From: Corbicula japonica
Taxonomy: Eukaryota > Mollusca > Bivalvia > Venerida > Cyrenidae
Length of the DNA: 64,000 nt
Reading direction: 5' to 3'
Assembly: GCA_038501625.1 (NCBI GenBank)
Contig: JAZAYU010000697.1
Span: forward strand, 114,810 to 178,809
Below, in pieces: positions 22,801 through 55,660 of the stretch. Below the pieces are notes generated by a model, which had not been told where the DNA came from, ran no database searches, and saw only the letters and a list, made by a program, of their open reading frames with translations. Position 1 is the stretch's first letter. Each line of letters opens with the position of its first letter. The position numbers and the translations under genes were made by a program.

Positions 22801-23454
22801 CGTACATGTACGACCATATTCAGTTCAGTAATTCAACTCAGAGGACTAATGCACCGGGTTTATCAAATAAACAATACAAGGCAAAACTTAATGTATCATT
22901 AACTGTTCAAAATATTGATCTTAACAAGAATAAATACAGAATACAAAAGTGGCACCCTTATCAAATTTTGAGGAGTATAATACCAAACCATGACTGAGTC
23001 GTTCATAGATAGTTACATTACTGTACGTAATAAAATAGTGATCGATATCTACAATAATTGTTAACGTAATTTTCACCCTGGCAGTCTAGTTCACACTGCC
23101 CCGGTGTATGTTCCGGTGCATGTCGGTAATTTGTAGACGGTGTAACGTTGTAAACTGACCCCATAGAATAATGACCCCCCGATCATTATTTTAAATAGAA
23201 TATTGTCTCCTCGGTTATCATTTATGACTTCCACACAGTAAAATTGTGATTCCCTATAGAGTAATGACCCTCTTAACCATGTAAACGTACTCATAATTAT
23301 CGCTACCGATAGGCATCGTAAGATAATATAGTATTGGCAACCTTCCGTGTGTGATTTATTCATTATTGGGCGGAATTGATTTAAAATTTCAGGTATGACT
23401 ACTGACAATGCCCTGTTGTGCAAGAAGAAAATTATGAATCTAATCCACGTGTTC

Positions 23455-25711: not shown

Positions 25712-25742
25712 ATGTCGATTCCAGCAGTCGCTTTTGGAGCAG
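25712..25742 (+). CDS. exon 1 of the BIR-protease gene (start codon)
   Basis: The ATG at 25712 opens ten codons (MSIPAVAFGA) plus one base, ending at donor G|GTAAGA. A possible acceptor, 'tatttctag' at 25697-25705, lies just before it, so this may be the first coding exon behind a non-coding one. No in-frame ATG upstream is needed. The residues are small and hydrophobic and lead into the membrane segment. Confidence 0.7.
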
Positions 25743-28700: not shown

Positions 28701-31700
28701 CTGTGGCAGCCAACTCTATTGTTCATCCAGTCTAAATTTGGTTATTTTCCAAATATATAAAAAAAATTCTTTTCTCGCACATTCCATCCACGACTTCCGC
28801 ATGTGATACTCAATTTATCATGTCTGTAAGTTATCCAAACGAAGCTTTGATCCATTTTGCAAAATTCTGCTGAATAAAGTTGCTCAAATCAAGGGAAATC
28901 CCTGTTCATTAATTTACTGTTTTTTTTTTGGTTTCAAGAATGCTTGCTGCAGACATCTGCGTTGTTGTTGTACTGGTGAGTTAGATAAACTCAAAGATTT
29001 TTATTACACAGAAGAGTTTTATTACACAGAAAGATATCACCAAAATCAGCAACATAGACGTATCCTCTGCCGCTTTGCGTAACTGCACCTCTACTACCCA
29101 AACTCATACTATCTATTACATTGATTTTATCCATAAAAATTGACTTAGAAATTCCAAAATGGCGGCATATTTGTTTTTAAAAGGAAGTGATTCAATTCAT
29201 ATTGGACCAGTTCATTATCCAATCAGAATCATGCGATCTCATATTGGCTCAGTAAAACACGTATTGGCTCAGGTTATCTCGTATTGGCCCAGTTGAGAGT
29301 TCATATGAATTGAGTGCATCCCATATAAGGTGGACTGGATTGTACATATTGTGTCAATATTGTTTTAGTTAATTAATAATTATAGGTTATTAGACGTTTT
29401 ACTGTACAATACGCGAATATATTTGGACGAGTACACAGCTTGAAAAGTCATATTGGACGAGCCGTTAGGCGTAGTCCAAATATATCCCGTATTGTACAGT
29501 AAAACGTCTAATAACCTTTTTATTCTTCATCTAATAAATGAAGCATGGCTTTTCAAGCGTTTAAAGGCTATTCCATATATATTCCATATTTTACGGTCCA
29601 ATATTTTATTAAGTTCTACATTTCTCTTACTTGACAAGTTGCGTCATATTGCCACTGTCACCAGACGCTATACACGTCTCAGTGTGTATTTAAAGACAAG
29701 CGCCTACACGACCACGTGTTGTTTTTTTTTTCATACGGATCATTTTTACGGTCAACGGCTTTTATCGTTGTAAAACAATGGTAAAGTGCATTTGCACTTA
29801 ATCATCCAATATGAAAAAATACGGACTTTTTTGGATCCAATACGGGAAAATATTGGACGGTCACGTGGTACAATTAAAGGACGCTAATTGGATGAATTTA
29901 TTAGATGTAGAATAAAATATAGTATTAATATGTTTCTATTACAGGATCGATGATAGGCTGTTTAGGTCCTCTCGAAGGTAAGCATATCACTTCTAATAAG
30001 GTTTTTTTGATGCCATCGTTTATACAGACACGACAAAACGATACAGGATTGTAAATACTTGAAATGTAGTATTATCTTGTAACATGAAACCTTTATTTGC
30101 ATAAAAACAAAAAATATATAAGTCAACGCCAAGTCCTACAATGTAAACAACGTGATTTCAACATTAATATATTATTTATTAACTGCGAATCCAACATTTT
30201 CTTTTCCAACAAGCTAGATTTCAATGAACATTTCTTTTTTTTTTTAATTAAATTTAAGGTGATGTAATTAAAGTATTATCATTAATTCAACATGATTACA
30301 TATGTTTTGGACAGTTTAATCGATTAAATGAATATCAGATGTAAAAAGAAAGTGGCGGATGAGTTCATTTGAATATCTATTGTAGTATTTGATTATTTAA
30401 TTTTACATATTGTTTGCGTACTTGAAAATATGTAAGCCCTATTGAAATGATAATCATATGTGCATGAAACAAAACATACATTCTTTAACAATAATAATTT
30501 CAATTCCAAACTTTAATTTATACACTCAGATAAATGTTCAATTAACGATGATATCAACTAAATACTTTATGAATATAGTACGATGACAAAACACAAAACC
30601 TAAAAAGCGTTGTCCTCTGCAAGCTGCCATGCACATGTGATTATTATTTGATTATGTATATTTATGTACTTCTCATGCTTTTGTTATGTAACAAACTGAG
30701 AACTTATGTGAATAAAACTTGAAACTTGGATAATTGATAACTCCTTTTACCTAAAAATCAGTTAATTTCGATTTCTGATTACAATTATACCAAGTCAGTA
30801 AACTGATTAAGTTATGGATTTTGATTTACTTACAACCCGTAAAAAATATTTGCATAACAACTCTTATATATCGTGATTTGTTTTCACTCATTTTTAAATA
30901 TCATAAAACCTTCAAACAAACATCAGGTAATCTTGGATTTTGAATAAAAGAAAAATCTCAGAAATATTTACAAGATGTCATTTCTTATTTCGTAAAACGA
31001 GTAAAATAGACAATGACTCTTTAAAAATGAATATGGCTTTTGCAACCAAAAGTCTAATGTTAACTCATAAACCCTTCAAAAATTCGTTTTATCATTTAAA
31101 AAGTCTTAATTTATTACAAATTAATATTCCTTCGCCAAGTTCAATAGTCTAAGAGTCTTCAAAGATTTGGCAAAAATTTGACTACATTCTGACTTTTGTT
31201 TTAAAACATTGACTCTTTGAACATGTGTCACAGTATGTTTTTTGTCATTCCAGGAGGAATAATTATGCTTTGTGCACTAGGTAAGCTCAGATCTAGCAAT
31301 ATCATTGTTAAACCTATGTTTTATGCATATTCGTTCAGAAGTGTTTGGATTCTACCAGCTGAGATTCGAGATTATTTCCTGTAAAGTACAAGCTTTCAGT
31401 GTCCTTTAAAGTTCTCTTTAAATATATTTAAACACTTCCGCGTTTTAAGTGAATCATTGAAGATATGTGTGCATAAGAAGAGAATATATATGTTTCTGGC
31501 CACAGCGTATATTTTTGAGCAGATACTCTCATGTAATTATCGACTAATCATAAAGCACTTAAAGCAGTTATTAAATGGGCATGATCCCCACCCTATGATA
31601 ATGCTTAAAATATTATTAATTAGCCTTACTCGGTACGTTGTTGCAAAATAATATCAGTAGAGTAATCTAGGAACTAGAAATAAGATAGTACTTTGCCACA

Positions 31701-34700
31701 TTATACATGTAATTATAATTAACAGCCGACTGTTAAGCATATTTCTAAATATGTTTCTTTGATTCTAGGTTTGATAGGAATATTCAGTCTCATTGTGAAT
31801 GTTGTTGGAGGTAAGTAAATCACCCATAGTTAGATCTTTTAAAACAAAAGTTTATACAGTTATGTTAAAAGAGAGATTATTAACCATTTTAAGCAGAGAT
31901 TATTATGTATTACCAACACTGGATGAGACATACTATTTGTGCCCTGTCCGTCCGTCCGTCCTTCCCCTCCATCCGACCATTATACTTTCCGCTCAAGTGT
32001 TCCTCAAAACTTCCACTTCATAAAATGATTGGTAATTTTGCGGATGTTGTTATGGGGTCGCGAAGGCAAAGATCAAACTCATTTAAGCTTTGATGAAGAA
32101 AGTTTCGAAGCAGAGCTTTCAAACTTCACGGTATGATTGTAGTCTGAGTAGATGGTTGCTTTTTTTTAACGGATTTAGACTTCAAAGCAATGGCAAGTAC
32201 AAATTAATTGAATTATTCCATTATTTTTAGTTAAAACTTAAACATATTACAGGGCTTATCTTTTTGTGAATGTTTTTAAAAGGTAGAAATAAATAAATTT
32301 GGAATATGTGATAGATTTCCAGTTGAAACTGGAAGTTGGGTGCGATTCCCCACAAACCTGCGAAGGTCAACAAGGAAACGAATTCCGTTATTTTTTCAAG
32401 TGCGTATTGTTCGAACATAATGAAAAAAAACGCTTGGTTGGGGAGGATTAGGTTTTTGTTTGCAAAAGAAGAGGCACTGCGGTTTGAGCAAGTACCACCC
32501 TTACAACAATGCTGTTATTTGTGACTTTTTCTGTCAATAATAACCATACATGTATAAGAGTGATTCCCGCCTAAATATTTGTAAGAAGTACGGGATCGTA
32601 TAGATTCAGCAGTCACTGATAGAAATAATGCTTTAAGAGTAACATGTACAAAAGATCCAAGAAACAACTGCACATAAAATTAAAATAATAATAAGGCAGA
32701 TATAAAGTTAACTATTTCGTCTATTTTGTGAAATGTAAAGATTTGATAAAGGCAAATTACTGGTAGATAAAAAAATTCCCCAATAATCTACATAATCAGC
32801 ACTCGCAAACCTAATCATGATAAGTCGTACAATTTTCATGTAGTTTTCATGTGTAGCTTGCATGAGAAACTGGAGTAATTTATTGTCAGAAACTGATGTT
32901 TTTGTTATCTAAGCAGCTAATAAATTGTGTAATGGAAGTCAACAATGAATTGCAAATATAATATTGTGAAGCTTGAGCTTAAAATTAAAAGGTCATTTCT
33001 TTCATTTATTTATAGAACTACCTAAAAAAGATAAAATGGTTTAAGAGCGTTGTTACAACCCGTTTTGTTATAAATACGAGAATTATAATAATTATAACAA
33101 TTTTTATTTTTATTACAAAACGGGTTGTAAGGTATCAACCACTTTTGTAATAATGAGAATTGAAATAAAATGTCAGCCATAGTTATTTTTGTCAAATGAA
33201 AGTTTCTATCTGCAGAATAACTGTTTCTTTAGAGAGAAATTAGAACTTTCTTATTAATTGAATTGTCCTTGATCATTTAGAGACCTTCAAGTATTGATTA
33301 AAGTATTGGTTAAAACTCAAATTATATATAAATGAACTTATGTTTTAGATTTTATTACATTTTATAACAAAACGGGTTGTAAGGTATCAACCACTTTTGT
33401 AATAAAATGTGAAACTATGTTTTTATTGCCATAAAGAGTCTCTATTTTTAATAACAGTTTTAGACAGAAATTAGTACATACTGATTTGTCCTTGATCATT
33501 TAAAACCGTCTGGTGTTGATTAAAACTCAACTTATATATGAACGAACATTTTATTACATTTTAAAATTTTATTACAAAACGGGTTGAAAGGTATCAACCA
33601 CTTTTTGTAATAACGAGAATGGTAATAAAATCTGAAACTTAGTTGTTGTTTTTTTCAAAGAATAACTGTTTCTTTATATAAAAATTAGCACGTTCTTATT
33701 GATCTGAATTTTCCTCGATCATTAAGAGACCGTCAAGATTTGACTAAACTCAAATAGTTATTATATATGAATGAACTTAAGTGTTAGATTTTATTACATT
33801 TTGGAATTTTATTACAAAACGGGTTGAAAGGTATCAACCACTTTTGTTATAACGAGAATTGTAATAAAATGTAAAACGTTTTGGGTTTTTTTTTTGCCAA
33901 AAAGTTTCTGTCCGTAGAATAACTGTTTTTAGACTGATATTAGCACGCCCTTATTGACAATTGTTCTTGATTATTTAGAGACCTTCAAGTATTAATTAAA
34001 TCTCAAATAATATATGAATGAACTTAAGTGTTAGATTTTATTACATTTTGAAATGTTATTACTAAACGGGTTGAAAGGTATTAACCACGTTTGTAATAAC
34101 GAAAATTGTAATAAAATGTGAAAGTTATTTTGCCAAAAATGATTCTATTCATAGAATAACTGTTTTCTGAATAGAAATAAGCACGTGCTTATTGACATGA
34201 ATTGCCATTGATCATTTTGAGTATATCAAGTCTTGATTAAAACTCAACTTATATATGAATGAACTTAAGTGTTAGATTTTATAACATTTTGATATTTTAT
34301 TACAAAACGGGTTGTAATGTGTCAACTTCTTTTGTAATCACGAGAATTGTCATAATTATTACAATTCTCGTTTTTATTACAAAACGGGTTGTAACAGAGC
34401 ATGTTATTTTTTAAAGATATTTATAAAAGAAGCGGTAACTGAGAAAAAAATCAAACAGATGACGTACATTGTAAACGTTAAACACGTTAAAGACACGTAA
34501 TTTGATTCCTTCTTCATTGGATGTAAAATAAGCTGAAATATCTTATATTTTCCCTAATCTGCTCACAATCAACTAATAAAGAATATTTGTCGCATATATT
34601 GAATGCTGTTTTGTTCAGAGTAATTTTGAAAACTTGGTCAGATAGCCACTTCTATTGCTAAAGGTCAAACACCACATGAAGATGTTGCCGATGATGAGTT

Positions 34701-37700
34701 GAACGCAGTGTCATTCCAAACTTCGCATGAGGATGATGCCGATGATGAGTTGAATGCAATGTCATTCCAAACTTCGCATGAAGATGATGCCGATGATGAG
34801 TTGAATGCAGTGTCACTCCATACACTGTATGAAGATGATGCCGATGATGAGTTGAATGCAATGTCATTCCAAACTTCGCATGAAGATGATGCCGGTGATG
34901 AGCTGAATGCAATGTCACTCCATACACTGCATGAAGATGATGCCGATGATGAGTTGAATGCAATGTCACTCCATACACCGCATGAAGATGATGCCGATAA
35001 TGAGTTGAATGCAATGTCACTCCATACACCGCATGAAGATGATGCCGATGATGAGTTGAATGCAATGTCACTCCATACACCGTATGATGATGATGCCGAT
35101 GATGAGAAGAACGCAATGTCATTCCAAACACCGCATGAAGATGACACCGATGATGAAAAGAACGCAGTGTCATTCCAAACACCGCATGAAAATGATGCCG
35201 ATGATGAGAAGAACGCTGTGTTACTCCATACACCGCATGAAGATGTTGCCGATGATGAAAAGAACGCAGTGTCATTCCAAACACCGCATGAAGATGACAC
35301 CGATGATGAGAAGAACGCTGTTTCACTCCATACACCGCATGAAGATGATGCCGATGATGAAAAGAACGCAGTGTCATTCCAAACACCGCATAAAGATGAT
35401 GCCGATGATAAGAAGAACGCAGTGTCACTCCATACACCGCATGAGGATGATGCCGATGATGAGAAGAAGGCAGTGTCACTCCATACACCGCATGAAGATG
35501 ATGCCGATGATGAGATGAAGGCAGTGTCAATCCGAACTCCGCATAAAGATGATGCCGATGACGAATTGAACGCAGTGTTACTCCAAACTCCACATAAAGA
35601 TGATGCGGATGTTGAGAAGAACGCAGTGTCACTCCAAACCCCGCATGAAGATGATGCCGATGATGAGATGAACGCAGTGTCATTCCAAAATCCGCATGAA
35701 GAGTATGCCGATGATGAGTTTAAAGCAGTGTCACTTCAAACTCCACATGAAGATGATGTCGATGATGAGATGAACGCAGTGTCACTCCGGAATAAACAAC
35801 CGGTATCATACACGTACCTTCAGTCTTTTATCGATCACTGCAACCTAACAAAACAGAACATACAAACTCCGCAACAATTTTTCACTCAAGAGTTAGGAAA
35901 TGAAATTACGAATATGAATGAACAAAGTGAGATTGAACAACATTTTGAGTTGGAAGGAGGAAGCGCGCTATTGAATTCTCAACAGAAACTGAATTCAAAT
36001 GACAACCTTTGGTTTCCCCTTAGCCGCGATGCTAAATCACCAGAGGAACATTTAAAGCACGAAATAGTGACGAGTGTGACCCACAAGAAAGAAAATGCAG
36101 ACGATAAAAGCTATTCCAAAGCCAGTCAATTATTTAGAAAGCCTTGGCCACCTCCGATTGACCAAACGGGTGAAACTATTAGACGCTTGACAGAACTTCC
36201 TCAACCGCTGATAGATACCAAATATACGATGCAAGTTCTTGAGGTTTGTTGTGTGTTTGAACCGATGATAAATATAGTCGAGCAGATCGCGCTTGGCAGA
36301 CCACCTGCTCCTCATGTTTCTATGCGGTACGAACTCCTGAGATTCTGCACTTTCAGAAGTTACCCAAAAGAAGACAAACCATACTTAATAAAACTTGCAG
36401 AGGCAGGATTTTACTACGCATCAGATGGAGACGGTGTCGTCTGCTATTGTTGTGGAATAAGAAGATACAACTGGACCGCAGATGATCAACCATTGAAAAT
36501 ACACAAAAGGATAAACCCAACCTGCAAGTTTCTCATAACAAATGATGAGGTCAACGTAAGAAATAATTACAATGGTCCATTCAGCAAAACCTTCATGTTT
36601 ATTGACAGTATTCCTGAGCCTAGAGAAAGCCTAGAACCAGATGAGGTCGTTAACAATGACTGGGAACCTGAGAGAACACGAAGTCCAACACCAAGACCGT
36701 ATAACGATGAGTCTTCGGGTAGTTCAAACCAGCTTGGTGCGTATATTTGTAAATGATATCCTTTTTTGTCACGCATTTAAACACACTCTTATAATTAAAT
36801 AGACGGAAAGTAACCGTAGATTCTATTACCTTTATATTTATTTCGGTACTAGTATATGATAAAAAGACAAATTTATATAAATATGATTTATTTCGTTTGA
36901 GGAACGAGAGAAATGATGAGAAAGAAATGATTTTCCCTTAAAGTTACGCTGTCACTGTTAAGGGTCACTAAAGCGCGACATTTTCGTGCTATTAAGGTAC
37001 TTCATACTTGCTCATAATACAGTTTTACAGATGATGAGCTGTGAAAATAAAATTATCATTTTTTAACAATTTTCAAAAATACTGTAATTATATTGTTATA
37101 AACAGATTAATACAGAAGACAATTGTTGAAAAAAAAGAATTATGTTAGAATAGTTTTAAAAAGTGGTACATGCTATGTTGTCTAATCCGGGTGTCAAAAT
37201 AAAGCATTTTCCACTCAAATATATCAAAAATAATTAATTACAATATCCAGTTCAATATTCCATCTAGGGTCAACCAGTGTTACTTTTTGATAAGTTCGAA
37301 TGTATTAGTGTATTAGGGAAAGACATTAAGATACAAAGTGTAAATATTGTTGTTAAAACTTTCCTTTAAATCCACAGCAATTAACACTGCGATCTCGGAA
37401 CAGAATCGGCTTGCCACGAAGATGGGCAGATTAACTAGCTACATAGATTGGCCGGAAACAGCCAGCCAAACGCCAGATGTTCTTGCAGAAGCAGGATTCG
37501 TTTACGAGGGTAGGAAGTTTTTTATGTTTCTTTCTTAGCGCTTCAACAATTTTAAAAACAATCATAATGATTTAATTGTAATGGTAACTGGTGAACATGT
37601 AACCTTCAATGTGGTAGGTTTTTTGCCGGGCCCCTTGCGGGTAACCCCATTTATTCATTATTATAATATATACGCATTACATGATCACTATGCTTTGAAC

Positions 37701-37844
37701 TTTTGCATGATGTTTATAATGACTTGTACATATACACTTGAAAGAGCAAAATACAATAAAAGACGATAAAAATGACACGGGTGAATAAGTGGGGAATAAC
37801 AAGAGAACAAAACAAAAAAGGAAAGAGAGAGACCAAAAACCCAA

Positions 37845-37893
<49 letters not shown>

Positions 37894-38434
37894 AGATAAG
37901 TAACCAACGAACAAACCTTCAGACATAAAGTAACAGATCTAAGCACCAGACACGGCGACATCGCCTAGCCAAGAGTGCTGTACATGGTTATAGACGTGCC
38001 ATCCAAATTCTCAATAGAAAAATTTTCCGGCAACGCCTATATACCATAACTATCCACTAATGACCCTCTGACTACCTAGACATTTACATACACTTATTTT
38101 TTACGCATACAAACATACGAGACAATTACATATACACATCTATTCGCATCGTGCTTCCTCCTTTTTTTTTTATTTTTGGAGTTTTAACACACACTAGTGC
38201 TATAGACAGGGACACACACAATGAAAGTCAGCTGGATCTTCCGATACACTGAATTGAAGATATATTAAGTTAAAGGGAGATAATTCAATTCAAACAACTA
38301 ACTTCCGAATTAAGGGATCCCCTGTTACTTTATGTCTGAAGGTTTGTTCGTTGGTTACTTATCTCACACATATGTATCTTCCTTCCACGAACATGAACGG
38401 AAGTTAGTTGTTTGAATTGAATTATCTCCCTTTA

Positions 38435-38493
<59 letters not shown>

Positions 38494-41400
38494 AAAATGT
38501 GGTAGTTAAGATTAATAGTATTTTATTATTTGTGGCGTTTGTTCTTAACAAGAGAATGGGTTGCTCTTGAAATAAAATTTGAAATGTATGACTATGGATC
38601 TGCGAATATAAATCTTACGTATCATAGAAAACGTCATTAATAACATTTCAAAGCAGGAGATACATCCTTGGGTTGATAAAAAATATTCAATGCAATACTG
38701 GCTTAGTTATATAAACCACCTATGTTAAACGGAACGAAATATTGAAACAACAATTTCAAGAAAAAATAGAAGTATATCGCTCAACGTGCTGCAAAAGACA
38801 TAAATGATAAACCTCTAATAGCAAGTAAAATTAAGTAAAGTAACAATATAGTATTACCCGTAATTTTCTCCGGAGCAGCTTCGAAACGTATTCCATATAC
38901 TAATAATTTGGCAACAACTATAAATATGAAAGGATAAATCATTTCTTGTGATAAAATGGTGTTATCAAATGTGTGGGTTTTTAAAAAATTCTTTATCTAC
39001 AAAATGGGATATCTCGTTTCAGGAATTGGTGATTGTGTTCGATGCTTCTGCTGTAGAATAGGTATTAGTACATTTTATTTCTTAACCCTTTTAATAAGTA
39101 CCAACCATATAGGTTTGTGAAATTCTTTGTCTTAAAATGAAGGTTTACAGACGATAAGTTTATTTCTAGTATAGTCACGAAACTTCGAAGACGAAGCTTT
39201 TGAATGTTGTTTCGTTATTATTTATTATTTTAACATCATAATTATAGTAAAAAGCTGGCATCTATTCATTAACTAAAATTATGATTAACAGTGTCTACAT
39301 ACTGTCACGTAAATATAACATAAACACATAAAAACACACAATTCAAATTGTATAGGAATCTTTGTGTGACCATTTACCATAATATTATTTGCCAAGCCAT
39401 TTTGTCTCGTGAAACATACATTGCTACCAAGAGACGGGCCTTGTTTTCCTAGTATGTATATTTGGAATTATCAAGGGATGTTCCATGGTAAACCTTCTAC
39501 CAAAGTTGTTTAAGCCATAATGTTTCACCAGTACAAAGTATTGAAAGTATTGAAGCCAATGAGTTGGATTTTTCCTACGTTTTAATTATGAAATAATCAA
39601 ACCGTTTCACAATTCAAATAGTTATTTTGTTTAATTTTGATGACCGTCAGCGATTGAAGCGATGGTAATGAAATACACCCTATATCGCTTCTAAGCGTTC
39701 GTATACCTTTCTTGATTCACTTATACATGTTATTGTAGTCATCATAAAATTCTTGACGGATGTTCTAACCGAAGAGGAAAAATTAAATGTATTTTTGAAA
39801 GTTCTATAAAACTATTCATGAAAATTCAAATTTGGGTTCCGATTTTTTATTTTCAGTTAAGAACCTGTGCTTAAGGGCCATCGTGACTTCTAAAAAATTG
39901 ATATAGGTTATTTTTTATTTGGAAATGAGTTATTGATACAATGTACATGCATGTTTGATTTATGTTCGAAAATGAAATGTTTGTTCATGGCTTGAAAAAA
40001 CAACTGGTTTATCTTTTTCTATTCCACGATATTTTGCATTTGCCATATTTCCTTTTGCATTTTGTTCATTAAAAAGCGACACAATTTTTATAACATGTTG
40101 TATATGTTATGTCTACGTATTTTATAGCACTGGAAACTTGGACACAAGATATGACCCCGTGGAATGAGCATATCCGCTATGCAAAGAACTGCATGTTTGT
40201 TAATCTGGTACAGCTGGCATTTCAATTTCGAGATGTAAGATCTTTTAAACGATTACTTCTTTTAAAACTAGAATGTGTCCTTGGACACTGATTCCCCCAC
40301 TTCTCAACAAAATGTGTAATAACAAAGGGCCATAACTCTGGTGAAAATGGTCGCAGGAAAAAATCCTTTCTTTACGATCATCTACACATCCTGCTTGATC
40401 ATCTATGCAAGTTTGAAAGAAATCCGCCTTATAGTTTAGGAGAAGTTGATGCCACAAGATTTGGGAACGTACAGACGTACGGACGGACGTACGGACAGAC
40501 GTACGGACGGACGAGTGCAACTCTATATGCCTCCCACTTTTTGGGGGCATAAAAAGATAAGCATATCAGGAATACCATATTCAGAAGACACAGCCTCCCC
40601 ACACAGCCACAAAGCAGAAAGGGAAAAATATCAATTTATAAAATAAGCAATATAGACACCACCTTCTTGTAACGTTCAATGGCATAACTTCCCACTGGGT
40701 GTTAAATGTTTTAAAGTTATGGGTCGATATCATTTATGTTACAAGATAAAATGCCTGGAAATAACCCTCGTCAATAGTTTATAAGTTATATCTAATGAAG
40801 TATTTTATTCATTGATGCATAAATATTTTCAAACTTAAATCAATTAAACAATGTTTAAAGATGAAAAATGGTTTCTTTTAGTTGAACTTATTTGTAAACA
40901 AGAACTTTCTTTAAAAAAGATATACGGCGTTGATGGAAAAGATTTATATATACATGTATAAAAGAAAGAAAGAAATATAGAGATGCGAAGCAGACACAGT
41001 TTAGTTATTTTAATTTACTTGTTATAGCTGTTGACGAACCCTCCCTGCCTTCTTAGTATGACCCAGAGATTAGGCGATCGAATCATGACAACTCATAACT
41101 TCTTTAAAAGTGTCTTTCAACAAAAATGTTGAAGCTGTTGCAACAATTTGATACGATGATAATAAGTCGATTACAGAAGCAATGTCTTATATTTAGTCTT
41201 GATTTACATTTATTCTGTTTCAATAAAATAACTCTTGTAGAGGTAGAACTAAAGATGAATAAATGTCCTTGAAATTTAATAAATATAAATAATAACAGTT
41301 TGTTACAAGAGCGGAATCTACCCACTTTTACGTAAATTAACTTCTGAGTATTGAACCCGGGGACTCCGTTTGCGAGGCGATAGAGTTATCCACTACACTA

Positions 41401-44400
41401 CAGAAAACTTGTATTTCGAACTTGAAATTAACAATCAGTATCAAAGGAACTAGAAAGGAAATCGTAAGAACTAGAAATATCCACACTTCTCTTTCGTTTT
41501 ACACTGTGTATAGTACGCAAGTGTTTACCTGACATCCAAGAATATTCTATATATAATTGTATTTAAGCCATCAATATTGACTTAACTGGTTATTTAAATC
41601 GTAAATATGTTTTTCTCCAATACATTTATCGCAAAATGCTCGAACATGTAAGTGCCAGGTAAATTCTTAATACACACAATATAAAAATCGTTACAGTAAT
41701 TGTAAACAACACCCACTAACAACAAATCGAAATAATCTATTTGATTTTCCCGCTGCATAATAATAAAAATTCCACTAGATACCTCTTCACCCTGCTAGTT
41801 TCCTCTCTGGTGTAAATAGCTACCAATCGAAATAGTTTATTTCATTTTCCCGCTGCATAATAATAGAATACGAGTATTATTTACAACATTTCATTGGTCG
41901 GAAACCTAGGTCAAAAGTGAGCTTAGACAGCTAACGCCGAAAAATGTAGAATAAAAGTTCATTTTTAACACACTAAATCACGAAACTGCATGCTAACTTT
42001 GGTTCGTCATACAATACAAAATATGATTTAAGCTAATGCAATCAACTACAATTTCAATAAAGATGAATGTCTTAGTGTAACCTAATTGTAAAATAACGTG
42101 TAATAAATGTAACGGAAATGACAGAATGGTTCGAATTGTAGATAGTTGTAAAGAAATGATGTTTTGTTGGGACCGTTTTTACCCCAGTAATTTGTTAATT
42201 TTAATCATAAAAGTTTTTTGCGCTCTCCTTGTTTACTGTCTTGTTGTTTTCTTTTAGCTTGCACGGGCAGGTTTTTACATCTTCAAAATTCAATATATAT
42301 TGAGATTGCATCACGATGGCGGAATGACAGAGCAGTAATGCGAAGATTACTTGCATACCACGTGTTCTGTCGCAAAACGAAATTTCTTTCTTTCCGTAGG
42401 AAAAAGATCGCGTGCTTTCACGAGTGACATCTGGGTGTCAAGTATTGAAGTTAGTGACAACATTTAGAAAACTGTATGTGTTAAGGTTTCGCAAACATTA
42501 CAAATGGCGAAAAATAGCTTAAATTTCAACAAGAAATATCTTTAAAAAAGATAAACGGCGTTGATGGAAAATATTTATATATACACGTATATAAGAAAGA
42601 AAGAAATACAGAGAGGCGAAGCAGACACAGTTTAGTTATTTTATTTTACTTGTTATAGCTGTTGACGAACCCTCCCTGCCTTCTTAGTATGACCTAGAGA
42701 TTAAGCGACCGAATCATGACAACTCATAAATTCATTGAAAGTGTCTTTCAAAAAAAATGTTCAAGCTGTTGCAACAATTTCATACAGTGATAACAAGTCG
42801 GTTAAAGAAGCAATGTCTTACATTAAGTCTTGATCTACATTTATTCAGTTTCAATAAAATACATCTTGTAGAGTTAGAACTCAAGATGAATAAATGTCCT
42901 TGAAATTTAATAAAAATAAATACAAACAGCCTGTTACAAGAGCGAAATCTACCAAATTTTACATCAATAACTTTAAAGAAAGTGTCCCTCCCGAGTATTG
43001 AACCCGGGGCCTTCGCTTGGGAGGCGAGAGTGTCATCCACTACACTACAATGAACCTGTATTTTTGTACTTGAAATTAACAATCAGTATCAAAGGAACTA
43101 GAAAGAAACCAGTAAGAACTAGAAATATCTACACTTCTCTTTCGTTTTACACTGTGTAAACTTGTATGCAAGTGTTTAGCTGACACCCAAAAATATTCCA
43201 TATAAAATTGTATTTAAGCCATCAATATTGACTTAACTGGTTATTTAAATCGTAAATATGTTGTTTTTTTCTCCAATACAACACCCACTAATAACCAATC
43301 GAAATAATCTATTTGATTTTTCCGCTGCATAATAATAAAAATCCCACTAGATACCTCTCCACCCTGCTAGATGCCTCTCTGGTGTGAATAGCTACCAATC
43401 GAAATAGTTTATTTCATTTTCCCTCTGCATAATAAGAGAATACGAGTATTATTTACAACATTTCATTGGTCGAAAAACTAGGTCAAAAGTGAGCTTAGAC
43501 AGCTAACGCCGAAAAATGAATTTTGGGGAAAATACTCATTGAAGAAATACAATTATCTAAGGATGTACTAATGTTTGCACGCTCAGTTTAGTCTAATTCA
43601 TGTTCTAAATACCAAGCACATACGAAAACAAAAGAAAAACCGTTTGAATGAGAACTCAGAAATTCATGGACAATATATCAAAACAACTCACACCTGAAAT
43701 AAGTATATGCTGGTCTACAATCATTAGTGCCAATTCATCAAAATAATGTTAGGGTTTTTATTCCTGAGACAAGATCGTGTTATTTGTCACCTAGTGTGAA
43801 CTGTTATGGCCGAGGTTCCGTATAACAAAAACGGTTCACCTTTGAAGAAAGATTTATCCATCTTCACCTCGCAAGATACTGGTTTACCTCCATATAATAT
43901 CCTTTTATTTTTATGAAGTGTGTTTGTTTTCAGAATGTGGGAGAGAATATCATCGGTAAGTACTGTTAACGTTTTTTTTTTTACTTTTATAGAAGAAGAC
44001 TATAAATGGCAAAAAGCACCAGTAACGAACTGGCTACTGTACACCGTATTAGTGAAGTTAGTTTTAAAGGTGATAGAGTCTTTTTTTAGCTCGACTATTC
44101 GAAGAATAGGGGAGCTATCCTACTCGCCCCGGTGTCGGCGTCGGTGTCGGCGTCCGTTTAACAAAAAATGCACTATGGTCCATAACTTGAAAAATACTTA
44201 ATATATCAACTTCACCATTGAATTCTGCATCATTACCAACAACACCCATAACTCTGCTACAATTTTTTTCAAATTATGCCTCCTTTTCACTTAAATTTTG
44301 CGTTAATGAAAATATGCACTTTGGTCCATAACTTATAAACTATATGAGATATCAACTTGAAACTTGGAATATAGATTCACCATCAAATTCTACATCATTA

Positions 44401-50400: not shown

Positions 50401-53400
50401 ACGGAATCAAAAATAAATGAAAATTCGGACCAAACGAATTAACTTTTTCAGTAAATTAGGACGGTGAAAAAATTGAGCTACCGCGAAAAAGTACAAGAGA
50501 ATAGGTCAGTAGTTTTAGTGTATGTGTTCGATAAAATTTGAGTTTCATTTCAAGTGGACGCTTGCAAGCTCATACGTAATATTCTTTAAACACAAAAATA
50601 TGCATAGCTTCATATGCAGGGCGATTCATATTACAAAAATCTGCCTACTTCTATCTGCCGTTATTGAGATTTTGAAAATTTTCTTTTTTATCGATGAACG
50701 TGCTGGAGAGGAGTGTACTAAGTTTCATAGTGGTCTTCGTTCGGCGTCTGTTGTCCGCCCATCAACAATTTACTTTAAAAAATATCTTCTCTGAAATCAC
50801 TGGACTGATTATAACCAAATTTGGCTTAACGTCTTGACTTCTAAACTTTCCAAACGTGAGGTCAACCGTTCCTCAAATTCGGGACTTGTGAGCAAAATCT
50901 TTAAAACAAAATATCTTCTCAAGAACGTCCAGATTACAAAGATATTTCACAGGAACATTTTCTTGAATTACTCTCAACCAAATGTTTTCAAATCGTAAAA
51001 ATACACTTAATACGAGGCTTGTTCGGAAATTATTGAGACTGCGTCTGTATGGGAGCTAATTTTTGACATAAATCGTAAATATTGTGCACACGTATATTTA
51101 AATTTGTACATTAATCAAACAGTGTAACTATTTTCAATGTTTAAATCATTTTAATTTGCATAATTTCATTTTTATAACCTATGGTAGACGTACCCGGAGC
51201 TTGCTGTAAATTCGGGACTTATAAGCAAAATCTTAAAAAAATATCGTCTCAAGAACGTCCAGATTACAAAGACATTTCACAGGAACATTGTCTTGAAAGA
51301 CCCTCTACTAAATGTTTTAAGTCGTAAAAGTACATGACAACCAATGTGCGGAACTTGTGTTCCTAATTTGTTCATAAGGAAAGCTTTGCAAAATCTTCTA
51401 AAACAACACTCCTACCAAAGTTTATCAAGCCGTGTCATTTCCTAAAACATGACCAGGAGTGTCGTGGGTATTTTGTCCCTTTATGTCTGTGTGGAAGGTT
51501 TAAAAGATCTTCTTTGAACAAAAACGCCAGCCAGCTTTCAAAATTATAGTGAATGGAAATGTTATTTGAACGACCCTCTACTAATGATGCTCAAGCCGTA
51601 ACGTTTCGTACAAACACATTGCTGCCAGTTGGTAGGGCTTGTTCCGGCTCGCCCACGGGCGGCCGGATATAGGTAGGAATTTACTATGAAAACAGCGAAG
51701 AAAACAAAGTTTAGCCGTTTGAACGGAAGTTCGTGGTTCTCGCTTTCTCTATTGGTTCTTTAATTGATGAAGGAAATCAGTGTGGAAATACCATACCCCT
51801 TTTCAATCCTCTAATATCATTGGATTATTAAATAGCAGCTACCGGAATCCTATGTGAGCGACGCCTTTAGGAGGTGTTGGTCATTTTAGGTTTTGGAGGA
51901 TAGTGTAAAATACAGAGGACTCAAATTCCAGAGTCACTCCTGGTTTTTTAAAGTGTCAGGTGAATAGTACCGCTAGTCTGGACCTCGGTTAAAAATCTTA
52001 TCCGAAAGACTGTTAGTAATTTTAGATTGAGTAGCGGGGTATCGAACCAGAGATCCCTGGAGACAGAACCTCTTTTACACCCTGCAAGAGCTCATTCATC
52101 TGGAAACTTAATATGATTAGCCGACTACCTTTGGCATATCCAGATACTTTCCAAAAATGTAAAACTGTAGACCCCAATGCGTTACATATATTTCCTGTAA
52201 CATTCCTTTTAGACACTGTATTGAAGTTGTTTAAGCCTTATCGCTTCGTAAAAATTACAAAGGGGTCGAGACTTGTTAGAAACGACTACATATTGCAAAA
52301 GGGAAAAAGTAAACGGGTGTAAAGTATGTTTGAAAAAAAAGGCGGGTATCCCGGTTTTGCCATTGAAATAAAGGCGCCAACAATTTAATGCTATTATGTA
52401 AATTAGAAAAAAGAACAAGAAGAAAACTACGTCTCGCTGTGCTAAAATGATATCAGTTTTTCACAAAATTGCAATTATAGACATCAATTTAATTGTATGA
52501 CATTGCAAAAAGTGTTTATTTCTTAAAAAGGGACAATATTTTTAAATCTTGTTGTTGTTATCGTTTTGTGTTCATTTTATGACGTAAATTAAATGTATGG
52601 AATTCTTTTTTAATACAGAGAACCAGTTTTCAGCTCAGGAGATAGAGGACATTTTTCTGTCAGATGCTGCACAGGGTGTCCTTGACTTGGGCTACCAGCC
52701 AAGAATCATCAAAATGGCTATTGACCAAATTCGTCTGAATCGTAAGTTTTATCTATTGGTTGGAAAGAAACAGACAAACAGCGCGAATTACAAATGGATA
52801 ATACATGTATTATCAATCCTATATTTCTGAATCTGTTCAACCATCTAACCTTCCGTTCTGATTGCATTAATTTTGTTCCCAAGAGTGGCATTTTAAAAAT
52901 GATCTATTCGTTATTAAATGTTGATGGCAGACTATTTATCATAATCAAAATTCAATTATTAATAGTCATATGTTTATAGATGAGCCGACATGACAGCAGC
53001 CACATTGAATTCTTGAAAAATTCTGATCTCCAACTCTCGGTAAACTGTTGTTGTTTTTTAATTTCACAATAAAATAATTACAATTATCATATTGTTAAGC
53101 TTTGCATTGGTCAAAAGAATAAGTGATTAATGAAAACAAGAAACGAGACGTTAAGTTCGTCTTATAATTTTGCAGTGCAAATGAGCGGCGAAGATGCAGC
53201 CTGTAGTAGCAACTGTTCTGGCTACCCTTTGAAAAAGAGTCATGATAATACTCTCTCCGAAGGCTTAGTCAATTTGTTGGCAAGACAAATGAAATCGGTT
53301 GGCGCGCTTATCTATAAAAAGAAATTGGGAACTGTGTTTAGAGTGGGGTCCGTCTACGTGATGACTGCATGGCATGTTGTTCAAGATTTTGTCGGTTAGT

Positions 53401-55660
53401 GAAATTCTTTTTTGTTGTTGTTTTAGGTGAGATTTAATTTAATCATGTCGACTAATGAGATTTTATTTAAATATCCATAATCGCATTTTAAATATTGTTA
53501 ATTTTTATTAGTTCGAAGTCAAGAAATTATTACATATTAGAGATTCGGAATAGACGAAAAGGGAACATTGTAAGCCGACGAACCCGACAAATATGAAAAT
53601 ATTGCAGGCTAGGTTTGATTGAGCCTGTTTATGGGCAGTAATGGAAATGCATATTACTGTCCACACCGCCTAGCCCCTGGTTGAGCGTTACTCAATATTT
53701 ACACCAATATGTATTACAATTTTGATCCATCCCAAACGATATGCCTATGACGGTGAACATGTAACCTTCAATGCGGTATTTTCAGATTAATACCATTCCA
53801 TGTTTAGAGGCAGATAAAAGAGTGGGTTTGCCCTAAACGAGAAAACAATGGACGGAACTAAACAGAATAGAATTTTGAAAGAGGATCTGAGAATATAAAT
53901 CCTACATAATGAAAACAAGAAATATCTTTAAAAAAGATAAACGGCGTTGATGGAAAAGATTTTTATATATAACAAAGAAATAAATAAAGACCGTGCAAAA
54001 ATTTCGTCTGGTGATAATACGTCGATTAAAGAAGAATGTCTAACATTAACTGTACATTCAGTTTCAATAAAATACCTCTTGTAGAGTTAGCACTAATGAT
54101 GAATAAATGTTATTAAAATACAATAAATGAAAATAATAACAACTTCTTACAAGAGCGAAATCTACCAACTTTTACGTAAATTAACTTTAAAAGAAAGTGT
54201 CCCTCGCGAGTATTGAACCCGGGGCCTCCGCTTGAGAGGCGAGTGTGCTAACCACTACACCAATGCGTTTTGAATTTCTGGACTTGAAATTAACAATCAG
54301 TATCAAAGGAACGAGAAAGGAACCAGTAAGAACCAGAAATATCTGCACTTCTCTGTCGTTTTACACTGTGTATTGTACTCGAGTGTTTACCTGACACCTA
54401 TGAATATTCCATATAAAATCGTATTTAAGCCATCAATTGACTTAACTGGTTATTTATACCGTAAATATCTTTTTCTCCAATACAATTAACGCTTTTTAAA
54501 ACGAAAATGCCCGAACATATAAGCGCCAGGTAAATACTTACACACAATAATAAAATCGTTACGGTAATCATTAACAAAACCCACTAATAACCAATCAAAA
54601 TAATGTATTTGATTTTCCCGCTGCATAATAAATTTTATTTACAATATTTCATTGGTCGAAAAACTAGGTCAAAAGTGAGCTTAGACAGCTAACGCCGAAT
54701 AACGCCGAAAAAAAGAAGGAAGTATATCCTTGGGGTGATTGAACAATACCCGAATCTGTATAGGCTGGGATATTGAAACCATTTATCTATAAACTGGCCG
54801 AAATATTTACACAAAGGTAATATTAGAAGTACTTTTGACATAGTACATAAGTATCATGCTCAACGACCTTGAAAGGACGAAAGCATGAATTAAGAGTATC
54901 CCTTAAGACATTAATGTCGGGAACAAAAAAGAACACATTTCTAATATATTGATTAACTCATTCTTATTCTGTTTCAGGTAAAAGCGCCGACGTGTTAGCT
55001 AGTGTTAGCGTTAACTTTAATGAATCACTTGTAGAGCATGGAGTCAGTCCTTATATGGTGGCCAACATCATTTTATGGAACATAGATTTGGATTTGGCAA
55101 TTCTTCAGATTTATCATCCTGATGGGTATCCCTTACCTCCACCCTTACAACTATTTTGTGAAGAAAAAGAATACATTAAATTTAAGGAAGTTTACCTTAT
55201 TGGATATGGGCATCCAAACGACGAAAGCAAACGCCTAGATCCAAAGTGTAAAATACTATGGCCGGATAGTGAGCAAGTGACGGCTGCTAAACGATGGTTG
55301 GATGAAAATACATCCTCGCTAATGTGTACATTAAAATTAAGTGGGATGCATTCTGATATAGTTGCTTTGGTTGAGAAGGGGTATGAAGGTCTTGACCACC
55401 CGGACAAGCTTATATTTGATTGCTACCTTCAACAAGGCGGCTCAGGGTCACCTGCTTTAATACACAACGGTTCGGATACTGTCAAGGTTGTCGGGATTTT
55501 AACTCACGAGATGCCAGAATTTTATTTCTTTCTGAACAATTTAGCTCGCAAGAAGATTGACGACTCCTACCTGTTCGAAATGGGGCCAAAGATGTCTAGC
55601 ATATATAAATTCGTATTAAGTATCTACCCAGAGTTAGCATCAGAAATATTCAGTGTTTAA
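25712..55660 (+). CDS. membrane-anchored BIR-BIR-UBA-serine protease fusion gene (12 coding exons)
   Basis: The coding exons are 25712-25742, 29945-29977, 31254-31280, 31769-31810, 34646-36736, 37378-37509, 39023-39061, 40128-40234, 43934-43955, 52619-52741, 53176-53394 and 54978-55660. They sum to 3,549 nt, or 1,182 codons plus stop. All introns are GT-AG; all are phase 1 except the one after exon 8, which is phase 0. Domain order: hydrophobic segment at residues 22-44, acidic 17-residue repeats at about 53-426, BIR1 at about 600-672, BIR2 at about 756-822, UBA-like at about 842-883, then a PA-clan (trypsin-fold) protease with His949, Asp994 and Ser1111. There is no RING. BIR domains bind caspases or IAP-binding-motif proteins, UBA domains bind ubiquitin, and the protease should cut peptide bonds; the combined role is inference. 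Transcript ends are unknown, and upstream non-coding exons are likely. Confidence 0.85.
28356..28493. repeat. imperfect palindrome (~60-bp arms)
   Basis: The left arm 'ttattaatcaagtgaattcatattgg' and on to 'tagtcatattggccc' pairs with the right arm 'aatatgactgtccgagaccc' to 'gaattcaattgattaatgac'. The arms are about 60 bp with a small loop at 'gaggccgagg'. The unit looks like a fold-back element end. Confidence 0.8.
29385..29516. repeat. near-perfect inverted repeat (43-44 bp arms)
   Basis: The arms at 29385-29428 and 29474-29516 pair with one extra base: 'ggttattagacgttttactg' opens the left arm and its complement closes the right. The loop is about 45 bp. The text 'attggacgag' and 'agtccaaatata' inside shows internal sub-repeats. 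A second, shorter inverted pair ('ttattcttcatctaataaat' type) at 29519-29539 and 29895-29915 encloses the next 400 bp. Confidence 0.88.
29945..29977 (+). CDS. exon 2 of the BIR-protease gene (33-bp micro-exon)
   Basis: Acceptor 'attacag' and donor 'GTAAGC' bracket 33 bp that keep the phase-1 frame and read (G)SMIGCLGPLE. It is symmetrical, so skipping it would not shift the frame. Confidence 0.7.
31254..31280 (+). CDS. exon 3 of the BIR-protease gene (27-bp micro-exon)
   Basis: Acceptor 'cattccag' and donor 'GTAAGC' bracket 27 bp encoding GGIIMLCAL, the first half of the predicted membrane helix. The exon is symmetrical phase 1. Confidence 0.7.
31769..31810 (+). CDS. exon 4 of the BIR-protease gene (42-bp micro-exon)
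   Basis: Acceptor 'gattctag' and donor 'GTAAGT' bracket 42 bp encoding GLIGIFSLIVNVVG, the second half of a hydrophobic stretch of about 23 residues. No charged residue interrupts exons 3 and 4, which together fit one transmembrane helix or uncleaved signal anchor. Confidence 0.72.
31811..34645 (+). other. intron 4 with tandem-repeat element
   Basis: This 2.8-kb intron holds a 'gtccgtccgtccgtcc' molluscan-type repeat fragment near 31940-32100 and the inverted-repeat element at 33051-34396. The remainder is AT-rich. No further exon is needed between exons 4 and 5, because their phases already match. Confidence 0.6.
33051..34396. mobile_element. inverted-repeat element with internal ~235-bp tandem array
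   Basis: The ends are inverted repeats ('tgttacaacccgttttgt' at 33051-33068; complement at 34379-34396). Inside are about six direct copies of a unit with the core 'ttattacaaaacgggttg.aaggtatcaaccacttttgtaataacgag', near 33110, 33365, 33575, 33810, 34050 and 34290, at about 235-bp spacing. Small hairpins ('gagaattataataattataac') sit at both edges. Bivalve pearl-like elements have a comparable plan of termini around a satellite-like core; the kinship is inference. Confidence 0.82.
34646..36736 (+). CDS. exon 5 of the BIR-protease gene: acidic repeats and BIR1
   Basis: This 2,091-bp exon uses acceptor 'cagatag' at 34639-34645; nearby AGs would hit stops. Donor 'G|GTGCGT' ends it; the frame only runs on to a stop at 36756 if the intron is retained. 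It encodes ATSIAKGQTPHED, then 21 full copies of a 17-residue acidic unit, then about 170 residues of unassigned, mostly polar sequence. BIR1 follows (about 36319-36531): 'RFCTFRSYP', 'LAEAGFYY', and the zinc ligands C-x2-C-x16-H-x6-C in 'CYCCG...IHKRINPTC'. A polar Ser/Pro/Glu-rich tail follows. Minus-strand frames across the repeats are shadows. Confidence 0.9.
34699..35769 (+). repeat. 51-bp coding minisatellite (21 copies)
   Basis: Twenty-one uninterrupted 51-bp units encode variants of LNAVSFQTPHEDDADDE, with partial units on both sides. The length is a multiple of three, so copy number can change without breaking the frame. Two subtypes alternate: SFQT against SLHT, and leading Leu against Lys. 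The N-terminal block is Leu-type and the middle block Lys-type, showing spread by unequal exchange. The net charge is strongly negative. Confidence 0.97.
37378..37509 (+). CDS. exon 6 of the BIR-protease gene: start of BIR2
   Basis: Acceptor 'atccacag' and donor 'G|GTAGGA' bracket 132 bp. After a short helix-rich lead (INTAISEQNRLATK) it encodes the N-terminal half of the second BIR domain: RLTSYIDWP, then VLAEAGFVYEG, matching the R-x-x-(T/S)-(F/Y)-x-x-W-P and L-A-x-A-G-F signatures. It joins exons 5 and 7 in phase 1. Confidence 0.88.
37843..38490. repeat. interleaved inverted repeats bounded by microsatellites
   Basis: An (AC)n(AT)n(GT)n tract (37843-37892) leads into arm A (37887-37936), whose perfect inverted copy A' is at 38322-38371. 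Arm B (38270-38307) has a perfect inverted copy B' at 38398-38435. The order is A, B, A', B', so the two hairpins interlock and cannot form together as simple stems. A (TA)n tract (38438-38490) closes the block. It lies in intron 6. Confidence 0.9.
38580..38830 (+). repeat. intronic repeat also present before exon 12
   Basis: Blocks such as 'gagatacatccttgggttgat' and 'atcgctcaacg.gctg' have diverged counterparts near 54719-54900 ('agtatatccttggggtgat', 'atgctcaacgaccttg'), and 'gaatataaatc.tac.ta' near 53890. The copy at 53.9 kb is split by the tRNA-like ~1-kb repeat. A further fragment is near 2670-2720. Confidence 0.6.
39023..39061 (+). CDS. exon 7 of the BIR-protease gene: BIR2 zinc Cys pair
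   Basis: A 39-bp exon (acceptor 'gtttcag', donor 'GTATTA') encoding IGDCVRCFCCRI. It supplies the C-x2-C zinc ligands of BIR2. It is symmetrical phase 1, so skipping it would keep the frame but remove two zinc ligands. Confidence 0.85.
   Translation, partial: ELVIVFDASAVE
40128..40234 (+). CDS. exon 8 of the BIR-protease gene: end of BIR2
   Basis: Acceptor 'ttttatag' and donor 'GTAAGA' bracket 107 bp encoding LETWTQDMTPWNEHIRYAKN then Cys. This completes BIR2: with exon 7 the spacing is C-x2-C-x16-H-x6-C, exactly canonical. The exon ends in phase 0, the only break from the phase-1 rule in this gene. Confidence 0.88.
40300..40555 (+). repeat. molluscan-type 'gggccataactc' repeat with GTACGGAC minisatellite
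   Basis: The block starts 'aacaaagggccataactctgg', ends 'cactttttgggggcataa', and contains a short array of 'gtacggacggac' steps at 40468-40512. The same theme ('caaagggccataactctg', then 'gacggac' steps) builds the large array at 61.5-63.5 kb, so the two are related families. Confidence 0.75.
40899..41944 (-). mobile_element. ~1-kb repeat family with tRNA-like core, copy 2
   Basis: This is the fullest copy. It starts 'aagaactttctttaaaaaagatatacggcg', holds the reversed tRNA-like block near 41344-41405 ('ttgaacccggggactcc'), and ends 'gacagctaacgccgaaaa'. It lies in intron 8. Confidence 0.85.
42531..43515 (-). mobile_element. ~1-kb repeat family with tRNA-like core, copy 3
   Basis: It inserted into another repeat whose uninterrupted relative is at 58970-59020: 'aaatttcaa' on the left joins 'atga.attttggggaaaa' on the right in that empty copy. 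This fixes the ends at 'aagaaatatc' and 'cgccgaaaa'. The tRNA-like block is at about 42990-43053. Confidence 0.88.
43516..43770 (+). repeat. dispersed repeat shared with 59005-59270
   Basis: About 250 bp align in the same orientation with 59005-59270 ('tagtctaattcatgttctaa', 'agaaaaaccgtttg.atgaga', 'agtatatgctggtctacaa'). The relation shows the two flanks of copy 3 of the ~1-kb repeat were once contiguous. Confidence 0.85.
43934..43955 (+). CDS. exon 9 of the BIR-protease gene (22-bp micro-exon)
   Basis: Acceptor 'gttttcag' and donor 'GTAAGT' bracket 22 bp (NVGENII plus one base). It enters in phase 0 and leaves in phase 1, exactly what is needed to connect exons 8 and 10. That fit is the main reason to accept so short an exon. 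Confidence 0.7.
44085..45070 (+). repeat. degenerate tandem repeat in intron 9
   Basis: A leading block 'agctcgactattcgaagaataggggagc' followed by 'gtcggcgtcggtgtcggcgtcc' opens about seven diverged units of 120-160 bp. Each contains 'ccataactt.aaa.tact', 'ttcaccatcaaaatctacatc' and 'ttatgcccctttt'. This is of the molluscan 'ccataact' repeat type; no coding potential is seen. Confidence 0.75.
45353..45897. mobile_element. 545-bp mariner-type MITE
   Basis: The inverted ends 'cactcaacaaaagttctaat' and its near complement 'attagaactttttttgagtg' are flanked by TA at 45351-45352 and 45898-45899. The interior encodes no protein. TA duplication and short size indicate a non-autonomous Tc1/mariner-type element. 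Confidence 0.88.
46692..49300. mobile_element. 2.6-kb inverted-repeat element with nested LINE fragment
   Basis: The ends share an inverted repeat of about 36 bp: 'taaggccttaaaaaaaaaag' then 'gtttgtttctggttac' at 46692-46727, complement at 49265-49300. A 'gggtcggtaggtcgg' or 'cggtcggtcggg' run lies just inside each end. The interior has no transposase I recognise and contains a LINE 3' piece at 47645-48231. The frame at 48748-49143 has no motif. I saw no clear target duplication, so the class is unassigned. Confidence 0.7.
47645..48231 (+). pseudogene. LINE reverse transcriptase C-terminal fragment with (ATTGT)n tail
   Basis: The open frame 47675-47971 reads 'FRTRNNRLPVETGSW' then 'LRVCNLCHRSIGDEFHYIFEC'. 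This is the cysteine/histidine-containing C-terminus typical of RT polyproteins of molluscan non-LTR retrotransposons. After about 230 bp of 3' UTR the copy ends in a short ATTGT-unit tail (48203-48230), a usual LINE 3' signature. Only the 3' end is present (5' truncation). Confidence 0.78.
49388..50147. mobile_element. 760-bp hAT-type MITE
   Basis: The ends are inverted repeats ('tagggatgggaacgagta' and complement), each followed inward by 'ggtactcgggtactcgg'-type repeats. A perfect 8-bp duplication, ATTTACAT, flanks it at 49380-49387 and 50148-50155. An 8-bp duplication and TAGGG-type termini are hAT features. The interior has no transposase. Confidence 0.93.
50720..51650 (+). repeat. degenerate tandem repeat, ~330-bp spacing
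   Basis: The block 'aaaatatcttctcaagaacgtccagattacaaagatatttcacaggaacat' occurs at about 50912 and, with few changes, at about 51238; weaker copies follow near 51500. It is preceded by 'gtcttcgttcggcgtctgttgtccgcccatcaac', a block of the kind found in molluscan non-coding repeats. No gene is seen. Confidence 0.75.
52619..52741 (+). CDS. exon 10 of the BIR-protease gene: UBA-like domain
   Basis: Acceptor 'aatacag' and donor 'GTAAGT' bracket 123 bp encoding about 41 residues with the pattern AAQGVLDLGYQPRIIKMAI. This resembles the UBA domain found after the BIRs in cIAP/XIAP-type proteins (a helix, an LGY/MGF loop, then a second helix). UBA domains bind ubiquitin. The domain is short and the assignment is by pattern. 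Confidence 0.75.
53176..53394 (+). CDS. exon 11 of the BIR-protease gene: protease N-half with catalytic His
   Basis: Acceptor 'ttttgcag' and donor 'GTTAGT' bracket 219 bp. After a Cys/Ser-rich linker it encodes SVGALIYKKKLGTVFRVGS then VYVMTAWHVVQDF. A glycine-flanked strand followed by TAWHVV is the catalytic-His signature of trypsin-fold peptidases of the HtrA/Trypsin_2/FAM111 type (compare TA.HV). His949 is the predicted base. Confidence 0.88.
53917..54712 (-). mobile_element. ~1-kb repeat family with tRNA-like core, copy 4 (internally deleted)
   Basis: This copy in intron 11 lacks about 150 bp between 'agatttttatatata' and 'aatttcgtctggtgataata'. It keeps the reversed tRNA-like block (54208-54272) and ends with a doubled 'taacgccgaa'. 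It splits the intronic repeat whose relative is at 38580-38830, giving a second natural empty site. Confidence 0.85.
54978..55660 (+). CDS. exon 12 of the BIR-protease gene: protease C-half, stop
   Basis: Acceptor 'gtttcag' opens the last coding exon of 683 bp, ending with TAA. It holds the catalytic Asp in NIDLDLAIL (Asp994 predicted) and the nucleophile motif QQGGSGSPAL, which aligns with the GDSGGP consensus (Ser1111), followed by KVVGILTHE, a typical strand after the nucleophile. An insert of about 90 residues with many Lys and Asp separates Asp and Ser, longer than in HtrA. No PDZ domain follows. The triad is complete, so activity is plausible. Confidence 0.9.

Follow-up and report, generated by a model that had tools for sequence, protein, structure and literature searches.

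A candidate chimeric gene of Corbicula japonica joining exons of an inhibitor of apoptosis protein to those of a trypsin-fold protease

A stretch of 64,000 nucleotides from the bivalve Corbicula japonica (hereafter the window; contig C697, positions 114810-178809) was analyzed with regard to a predicted gene in which exons encoding two BIR domains and a UBA-type segment, as in inhibitor of apoptosis proteins (IAPs), are followed by exons encoding a Trypsin_2 serine protease. The window belongs to a draft assembly of 1.07 Gb in 1,630 contigs, and C328, C3, C7, C589, C29, C221 and similar labels denote contigs of this same genome. Comparison of the exons with their relatives in the genome points to a locus-specific chimeric gene that arose once, protease exons having presumably taken the place of the 3' end of an IAP gene of the BIR-BIR-UBA-RING type. 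On balance, we consider this reading somewhat more likely than not.

Gene model and predicted domains

A total of 11 exons on the forward strand (25712-55660), separated by GT-AG introns, could be joined into one open frame of 1,174 codons (Table 1). The first-pass annotation of this DNA had proposed a continuous spliced frame of 1,182 codons. This was reproduced when a doubtful 22-nt exon (43934-43955) and the acceptor at 52619 were included, which gave exactly 1,182 codons and no stop before the terminal one. The 22-nt exon is the least certain part of the gene model. A small exon between BIR2 and the UBA exon was sought by comparison with the relative on C328, but none was found and no conservation was seen. 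The phases make some small exon plausible here: exon 8 finishes in phase 0, and the C328 UBA exon seems to begin in phase 1. The exons encoding BIR1, UBA, the catalytic His and the protein end each recur as homologous exons elsewhere in the genome, and the exon structure is therefore unlikely to be due to chance.

The Pfam scan of the spliced C-terminal part (748 amino acids) detected two BIR stretches with a whole-protein E of 9.5e-38. BIR1 is encoded by a single exon, while BIR2 is spread over three. At least one BIR with the zinc motif C-x2-C-x16-H-x6-C, by which the IAP family is recognized, is present (BIR1), and the two BIR domains annotated earlier were thus confirmed. The same spliced part matched Trypsin_2 (PF13365) with 34.8 bits, above the curated cut-off of 27.6 bits. 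The 300 amino acids of the protease alone gave 38.1 bits for Trypsin_2 and 21.2 bits for Trypsin (cut-off 20.6 bits), both above the cut-offs, while the last exon alone, unspliced, remained below at 23.8 bits. The His, Asp and Ser motifs of the Trypsin_2 protease (TAWH, DLDLA and GGSGSP) are all intact. At the level of sequence, the protease proposed for the C-terminus is therefore supported once the exons are spliced. A single-sequence AlphaFold2 model of the last exon only (mean predicted local distance difference test score 34.5) was uninformative on the fold.

The UBA exon by itself matched no Pfam family, and a PDB sequence search with it returned only helicases and phosphotriesterases, none of them below E 0.43. 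Since its own matches are lacking, the UBA identity of this exon rests on its paralogues. A PDB search with UBA and protease together yielded nothing relevant to FAM111; its single hit, a designed protein (E 0.098), was taken as chance. The UBA-like segment of the first-pass annotation is homologous to the UBA exon of C328, but a search of the window did not recover the exon presumed to encode the third helix. Ubiquitin binding is therefore doubtful. The N-terminus displays one strongly hydrophobic stretch across tiny phase-1 exons, with a 19-residue hydropathy mean of 2.63. The membrane anchor suggested earlier thus stands as a hydropathy prediction, from which insertion into a membrane would be deduced. 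The ratio of nonsynonymous to synonymous substitution rates (dN/dS) in comparison with C328 was 0.21 for the BIR1 exon, 0.33 for UBA and 0.60 for BIR2.

Table 1. Exons and motifs of the predicted gene in the window.
Feature	Position	Strand	Evidence and remarks
Exon 1, ATG start, MSIPAVAFGAG	25712-25742	+	Donor GT, ends in phase 1; putative start
Exon 2, 33 nt	29945-29977	+	AG/GT, phase 1 to 1
Exon 3, 27 nt, hydrophobic	31254-31280	+	AG/GT, phase 1 to 1
Exon 4, 42 nt	31769-31810	+	Forms a predicted membrane helix with exon 3 (approximately residues 24-42)
Exon 5, acidic repeats, linker and BIR1	34646-36736	+	Open frame; BIR 64.3 bits; C328 relative 80% identical
22 copies of a 51-bp (17-aa) acidic repeat	34666-35788	+	Tandem Repeats Finder; start of exon 5
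BIR1 zinc motif C-x2-C-x16-H-x6-C	36442-36525	+	Motif within one exon
Exon 6, first part of BIR2	37378-37509	+	BIR 20.7 bits; matching exon of same length in C328
Exon 7, middle of BIR2 (CFCC)	39023-39061	+	BIR 19.7 bits; 93.9% nucleotide match to C328
Exon 8, end of BIR2, ends in phase 0	40128-40234	+	C328 match, C328 exon 30 nt longer; spliced BIR match
Candidate 22-nt exon restoring phase before UBA exon	43934-43955	+	Uncertain
UBA-type exon, first two helices, phase-1 donor	52619-52741	+	Matches at 14 further genomic places; 74% identical (aa) to C328
Protease exon with catalytic His	53176-53394	+	36 other genome matches (E up to 1); phase-1 acceptor
TAWH motif (His)	53364-53375	+	In His exon
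Last exon: Asp (DLDLA), Ser (GGSGSP), stop	54978-55660	+	39 other genome matches
DLDLA motif (Asp)	55085-55099	+	In last exon
GGSGSP motif (Ser)	55442-55444 (first Ser codon)	+	In last exon

IAP and protease families in the same genome

Among the BIRC2/3-like IAPs of the BIR-BIR-UBA-RING type, the locus on C328 is the closest case to the window gene. Over 20 kb it contains BIR1, a BIR2 divided among three exons whose splice sites correspond to those of the window gene, a UBA exon, an open frame and a RING exon (zf-C3HC4_3, 57.3 bits). The two genes share a BIR1 exon with 80% amino acid identity, a BIR2 in three exons (132, 39 and 107 nt in the window; 132, 39 and 137 nt in C328) and a UBA exon with 74% amino acid identity and a phase-1 donor. 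They differ in what follows: C328 continues with a linker exon (presumed UBA helix 3) and RING, the window gene with the protease. The open frame 3' of the C328 UBA exon, with predicted exon boundaries, presumably encodes the third UBA helix and the linker. Joined to it, the C328 UBA exon gave a weak match to UBA_BIRC2-3 (E 0.057) and to the 3t6p chain of BIRC2 (E 0.31), and a lysozyme entry scored better than the latter (E 0.052).

Genome-wide searches detected at least 150 BIR matches, and the counts for both BIR and RING (at least 150 each) are lower bounds. The close relatives of the BIR1 exon were six among the matches listed, namely C328 (80%), C3 (72%) and four on C7 (64-74%). A more distant BIR1 relative on C105 (51%) was rejected as a counterpart; it stops soon after BIR1, and the protease query found nothing better than E 1.4 in the surrounding 40 kb. 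At 17 BIR places, spread over many contigs, the score was identical (81.2 bits) and the open frame spanned 135-137 amino acids, which suggests a recent burst of IAP copies.

Mapping of the UBA exon over the whole genome, in which all 15 candidates of a first look were scored, identified the window, six strong places (E 1.6e-7 or better), one at E 6.5e-4 and seven weak ones that reached only E 0.03-0.39. A BIR1 match lay 5' on the same strand at 13 of the 14 other places, comprising all six closest relatives and seven of the remaining eight; the place on C1465 had none among the matches listed. With the C328 RING exon as query, a RING match was found 3' of the UBA exon on the same strand at all 14 places, at distances of 1,132 to 8,258 bp. 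These results suggest that the BIR and UBA exons form one gene, which by comparison with its 14 relatives ended ancestrally in a RING. Genome searches with the His exon and the last exon detected no protease match 3' of the UBA exon at any of these 14 places.

The C-terminal RING of BIRC2/3-like IAPs was not found within the window. No RING motif was present on either strand, and the linker and RING exons of C328 matched the window with nothing better than E 1.2. As a control, the RING query recovered 8 of 29 loci in the database of the window search. A RING-like match of 15 residues at 52318-52362 (E 1.2) was weak and taken as chance. The earlier suggestion that the protease occupies the position of the RING is thus in agreement with the arrangement of the relatives.

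The protease exons showed a distribution of their own. In addition to the window, the genome yielded 39 matches to the last exon and, at E up to 1, 36 to the His exon. For pairing, 37 of the 40 last-exon matches (three second pieces left out) and 33 of the 37 His-exon matches (four above E 0.05 left out) were used, together with 18 BIR matches on the protease contigs. A His exon was located within 12 kb 5' of the last exon on the same strand at 31 of 37 places, the window included; three of the His-exon matches left out would add one at C44, C709 and C150. Among the BIR matches listed, none preceded any of the other 36 protease places on its own strand within 60 kb, with the exception of a damaged copy on C221, which had a BIR match 35.2 kb 5'. 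Since both exons occur together at most places without a BIR nearby, and since no protease stands beside the other UBA exons, the sequences indicate that the protease is a separate family, whose join to an IAP was seen at the window locus only.

Contig C221 carries six BIR1-type places as well as protease pieces. One protease copy there (644497, reverse strand) is followed, some 11 kb further 3', by a BIR1 exon in the same orientation. The protease copies on C1150, C314, C121, C89, C135 and C357 display stops in both exons, and four of these six have nearly equal exon spacing of about 1.1 kb; they may represent an amplified pseudogene.

The UBA-protease junction and its alternatives

In the window, 434 bp separate the UBA exon from the His exon (52741 to 53176). 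The His exon starts at a predicted phase-1 acceptor in the window and in both relatives examined, C589 and C29. Because this acceptor occurs at the homologous place in C589 and C29, the His exon looks like an internal exon of the protease family that needs a preceding phase-1 donor. The acceptor phase in the window fits the donor of the UBA exon, which would supply what the His exon requires. In C589, the closest protease copy, no in-frame ATG was found from the upstream stop to the start of homology; the last exon of this copy contains one TAA. No UBA match (E up to 2) was detected in the 1.6 kb 5' of the C589 His exon, a search from which a 369-bp gap was left out.

Several observations weigh against a chimeric gene. 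The 5' acceptor of exon 5 looks weak, and so does the connection between exon 8 and the UBA exon. The case rests on the DNA of one species, in which the junction occurs at only one of 15 UBA places and one of 37 protease places. In addition, an in-frame ATG at 53130 in the window, and another 5' of the acceptor in C29, would permit an unspliced start of the protease. The contig stops where the window stops, 11,259 bp after the UBA exon, which leaves room for a displaced RING beyond the end. These last points would also suit two genes, namely a free protease copy with its own transcript, lying either within the intron that follows the UBA exon or beside a truncated IAP, with the RING lying beyond the contig end or lost. 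Such an arrangement would agree with the 30 other places that carry both protease exons (some with stops), with the general separation of protease copies from BIR exons, and with the occurrence of both families on C221. However, at three loci the His exon is predicted to begin with the acceptor of an internal exon, so that a separate gene would need an upstream exon, and only 434 bp are free for it. No good first exon was found there, as all eight alternatives had donors scoring 2 of 5 or less. Furthermore, the RING was never more than 8.3 kb from the UBA exon in the 14 relatives. We therefore regard two genes as rather unlikely.

The junction may also be a by-product of decay, if loss of the RING left a non-functional IAP copy whose splice to the protease is accidental and unused. 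The UBA is probably cut after its second helix by the junction, BIR2 appears weakly constrained (although a pairwise dN/dS does not say which branch is constrained), and the solitary occurrence of the junction is what such an accident would leave. Every exon is open, without frameshift or stop, whereas several other protease copies carry stops, and BIR1 is strongly conserved; a dying copy is accordingly improbable. Least probable is a misjoin of an IAP haplotype and a protease locus during assembly. A draft in many contigs, with the junction found nowhere else, would allow such an error, but the error would have had to strike within the 434 bp that separate two exons and still leave these with a common orientation and compatible phases.

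A chimeric gene could have arisen from a BIR-BIR-UBA-linker-RING IAP gene through loss of the 3' part, including the presumed third UBA helix, the linker and the RING. A free Trypsin_2 protease family, perhaps FAM111-like, would have contributed its last two exons, which came to follow the UBA exon in matching phase 1. From N- to C-terminus, the product would carry a membrane anchor, an extended acidic spacer, a pair of zinc-binding BIRs, a truncated UBA and a serine protease whose triad is complete. The BIRs may retain the partner binding of other IAPs, and the protease fused to them may cut the bound partner, its neighbours or its own chain, where the ancestor would have ubiquitinated. Both modes named in the first-pass annotation, capture-and-cut and self-limitation of the protease, are inferred from this anatomy. 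Most plausibly, targets would be captured by BIR1 with the protease as effector, because BIR1 is conserved (0.21), BIR2 is less so (0.60) and ubiquitin binding by the UBA is doubtful. Transcription across the junction, membrane insertion, activity and targets are all predictions from sequence. The more specific proposal of a natural targeted protease, that is, a membrane-held IAP whose RING was exchanged for a FAM111-like serine protease cutting BIR ligands directly, is tentative and we hold it to be possible rather than probable.

Known systems and other features of the window

IAPs act via ubiquitin or by direct caspase binding. If the chimeric gene is real, an IAP equipped with a protease would couple a different output to an unchanged sensor, and it would be a parallel in nature to the targeted degraders that have been engineered. 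For testing the swap, the same genome offers ready controls in its RING-bearing IAP relatives and its free proteases.

HtrA2/Omi, a serine protease of the trypsin fold, acts together with IAPs as a free enzyme and possesses a PDZ domain. The first-pass annotation had drawn a comparison with this type, but no PDZ match was found in the Pfam scan of the spliced protein (E up to 1), and HtrA kinship was rejected on this ground. In the window gene, BIR and protease would moreover form one chain. The FAM111-type proteases have Trypsin_2 (PF13365) as the window gene does, a likeness by description and not by alignment, and they differ in that the window protease is attached to BIR and UBA exons. One FAM111 member from a coral and one from a lancelet are described as having no UBL domains (PMC9798293). 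No paper on FAM111 in molluscs was found in the open-access literature.

Bivalve IAPs have undergone massive expansion and domain shuffling by exon modules, and UBA-containing IAPs occur among them, according to sections of two studies (PMC7831173, PMC8917759). The clam and oyster combinations given in these sections consist of BIR, RING, DD, UBA and UBC, with no protease domain, and the words 'trypsin' and 'peptidase' each occur 0 times in the two texts. No fusion of BIR with a trypsin fold was recognized in the open-access literature, subscription journals and annotation databases (with possible automatic gene models) lying outside the search. The only paper found to name both Pfam accessions (PMC7539657) appears to be a survey of cell-death genes in protists, and the excerpts of PMC8195603 and PMC11797021 contain no BIR-trypsin protein.

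Several further features were noted in the window. A polyprotein with one open frame of 1,327 amino acids (4209-8192, reverse strand), with Pfam matches to RVT_1, RNase H and integrase, is one that we take to be of the Ty3/Gypsy type. A remnant of a Tc1/mariner-like transposase was identified at 22219-22830 (forward strand), with a match to HTH_Tnp_Tc3_2 in 22219-22551. A frame of 154 amino acids (14700-15164, forward strand) had no Pfam match and may resemble a packaging-type ATPase. Two tRNA-like stretches (Glu, Gly) at 25044-25116 (forward strand) and 42982-43055 (reverse strand) are perhaps tRNA-derived short interspersed elements, the latter being located inside an intron of the predicted IAP-protease gene. 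Near the contig end, a 169-bp unit is repeated in tandem about 11 times (61591-63456).
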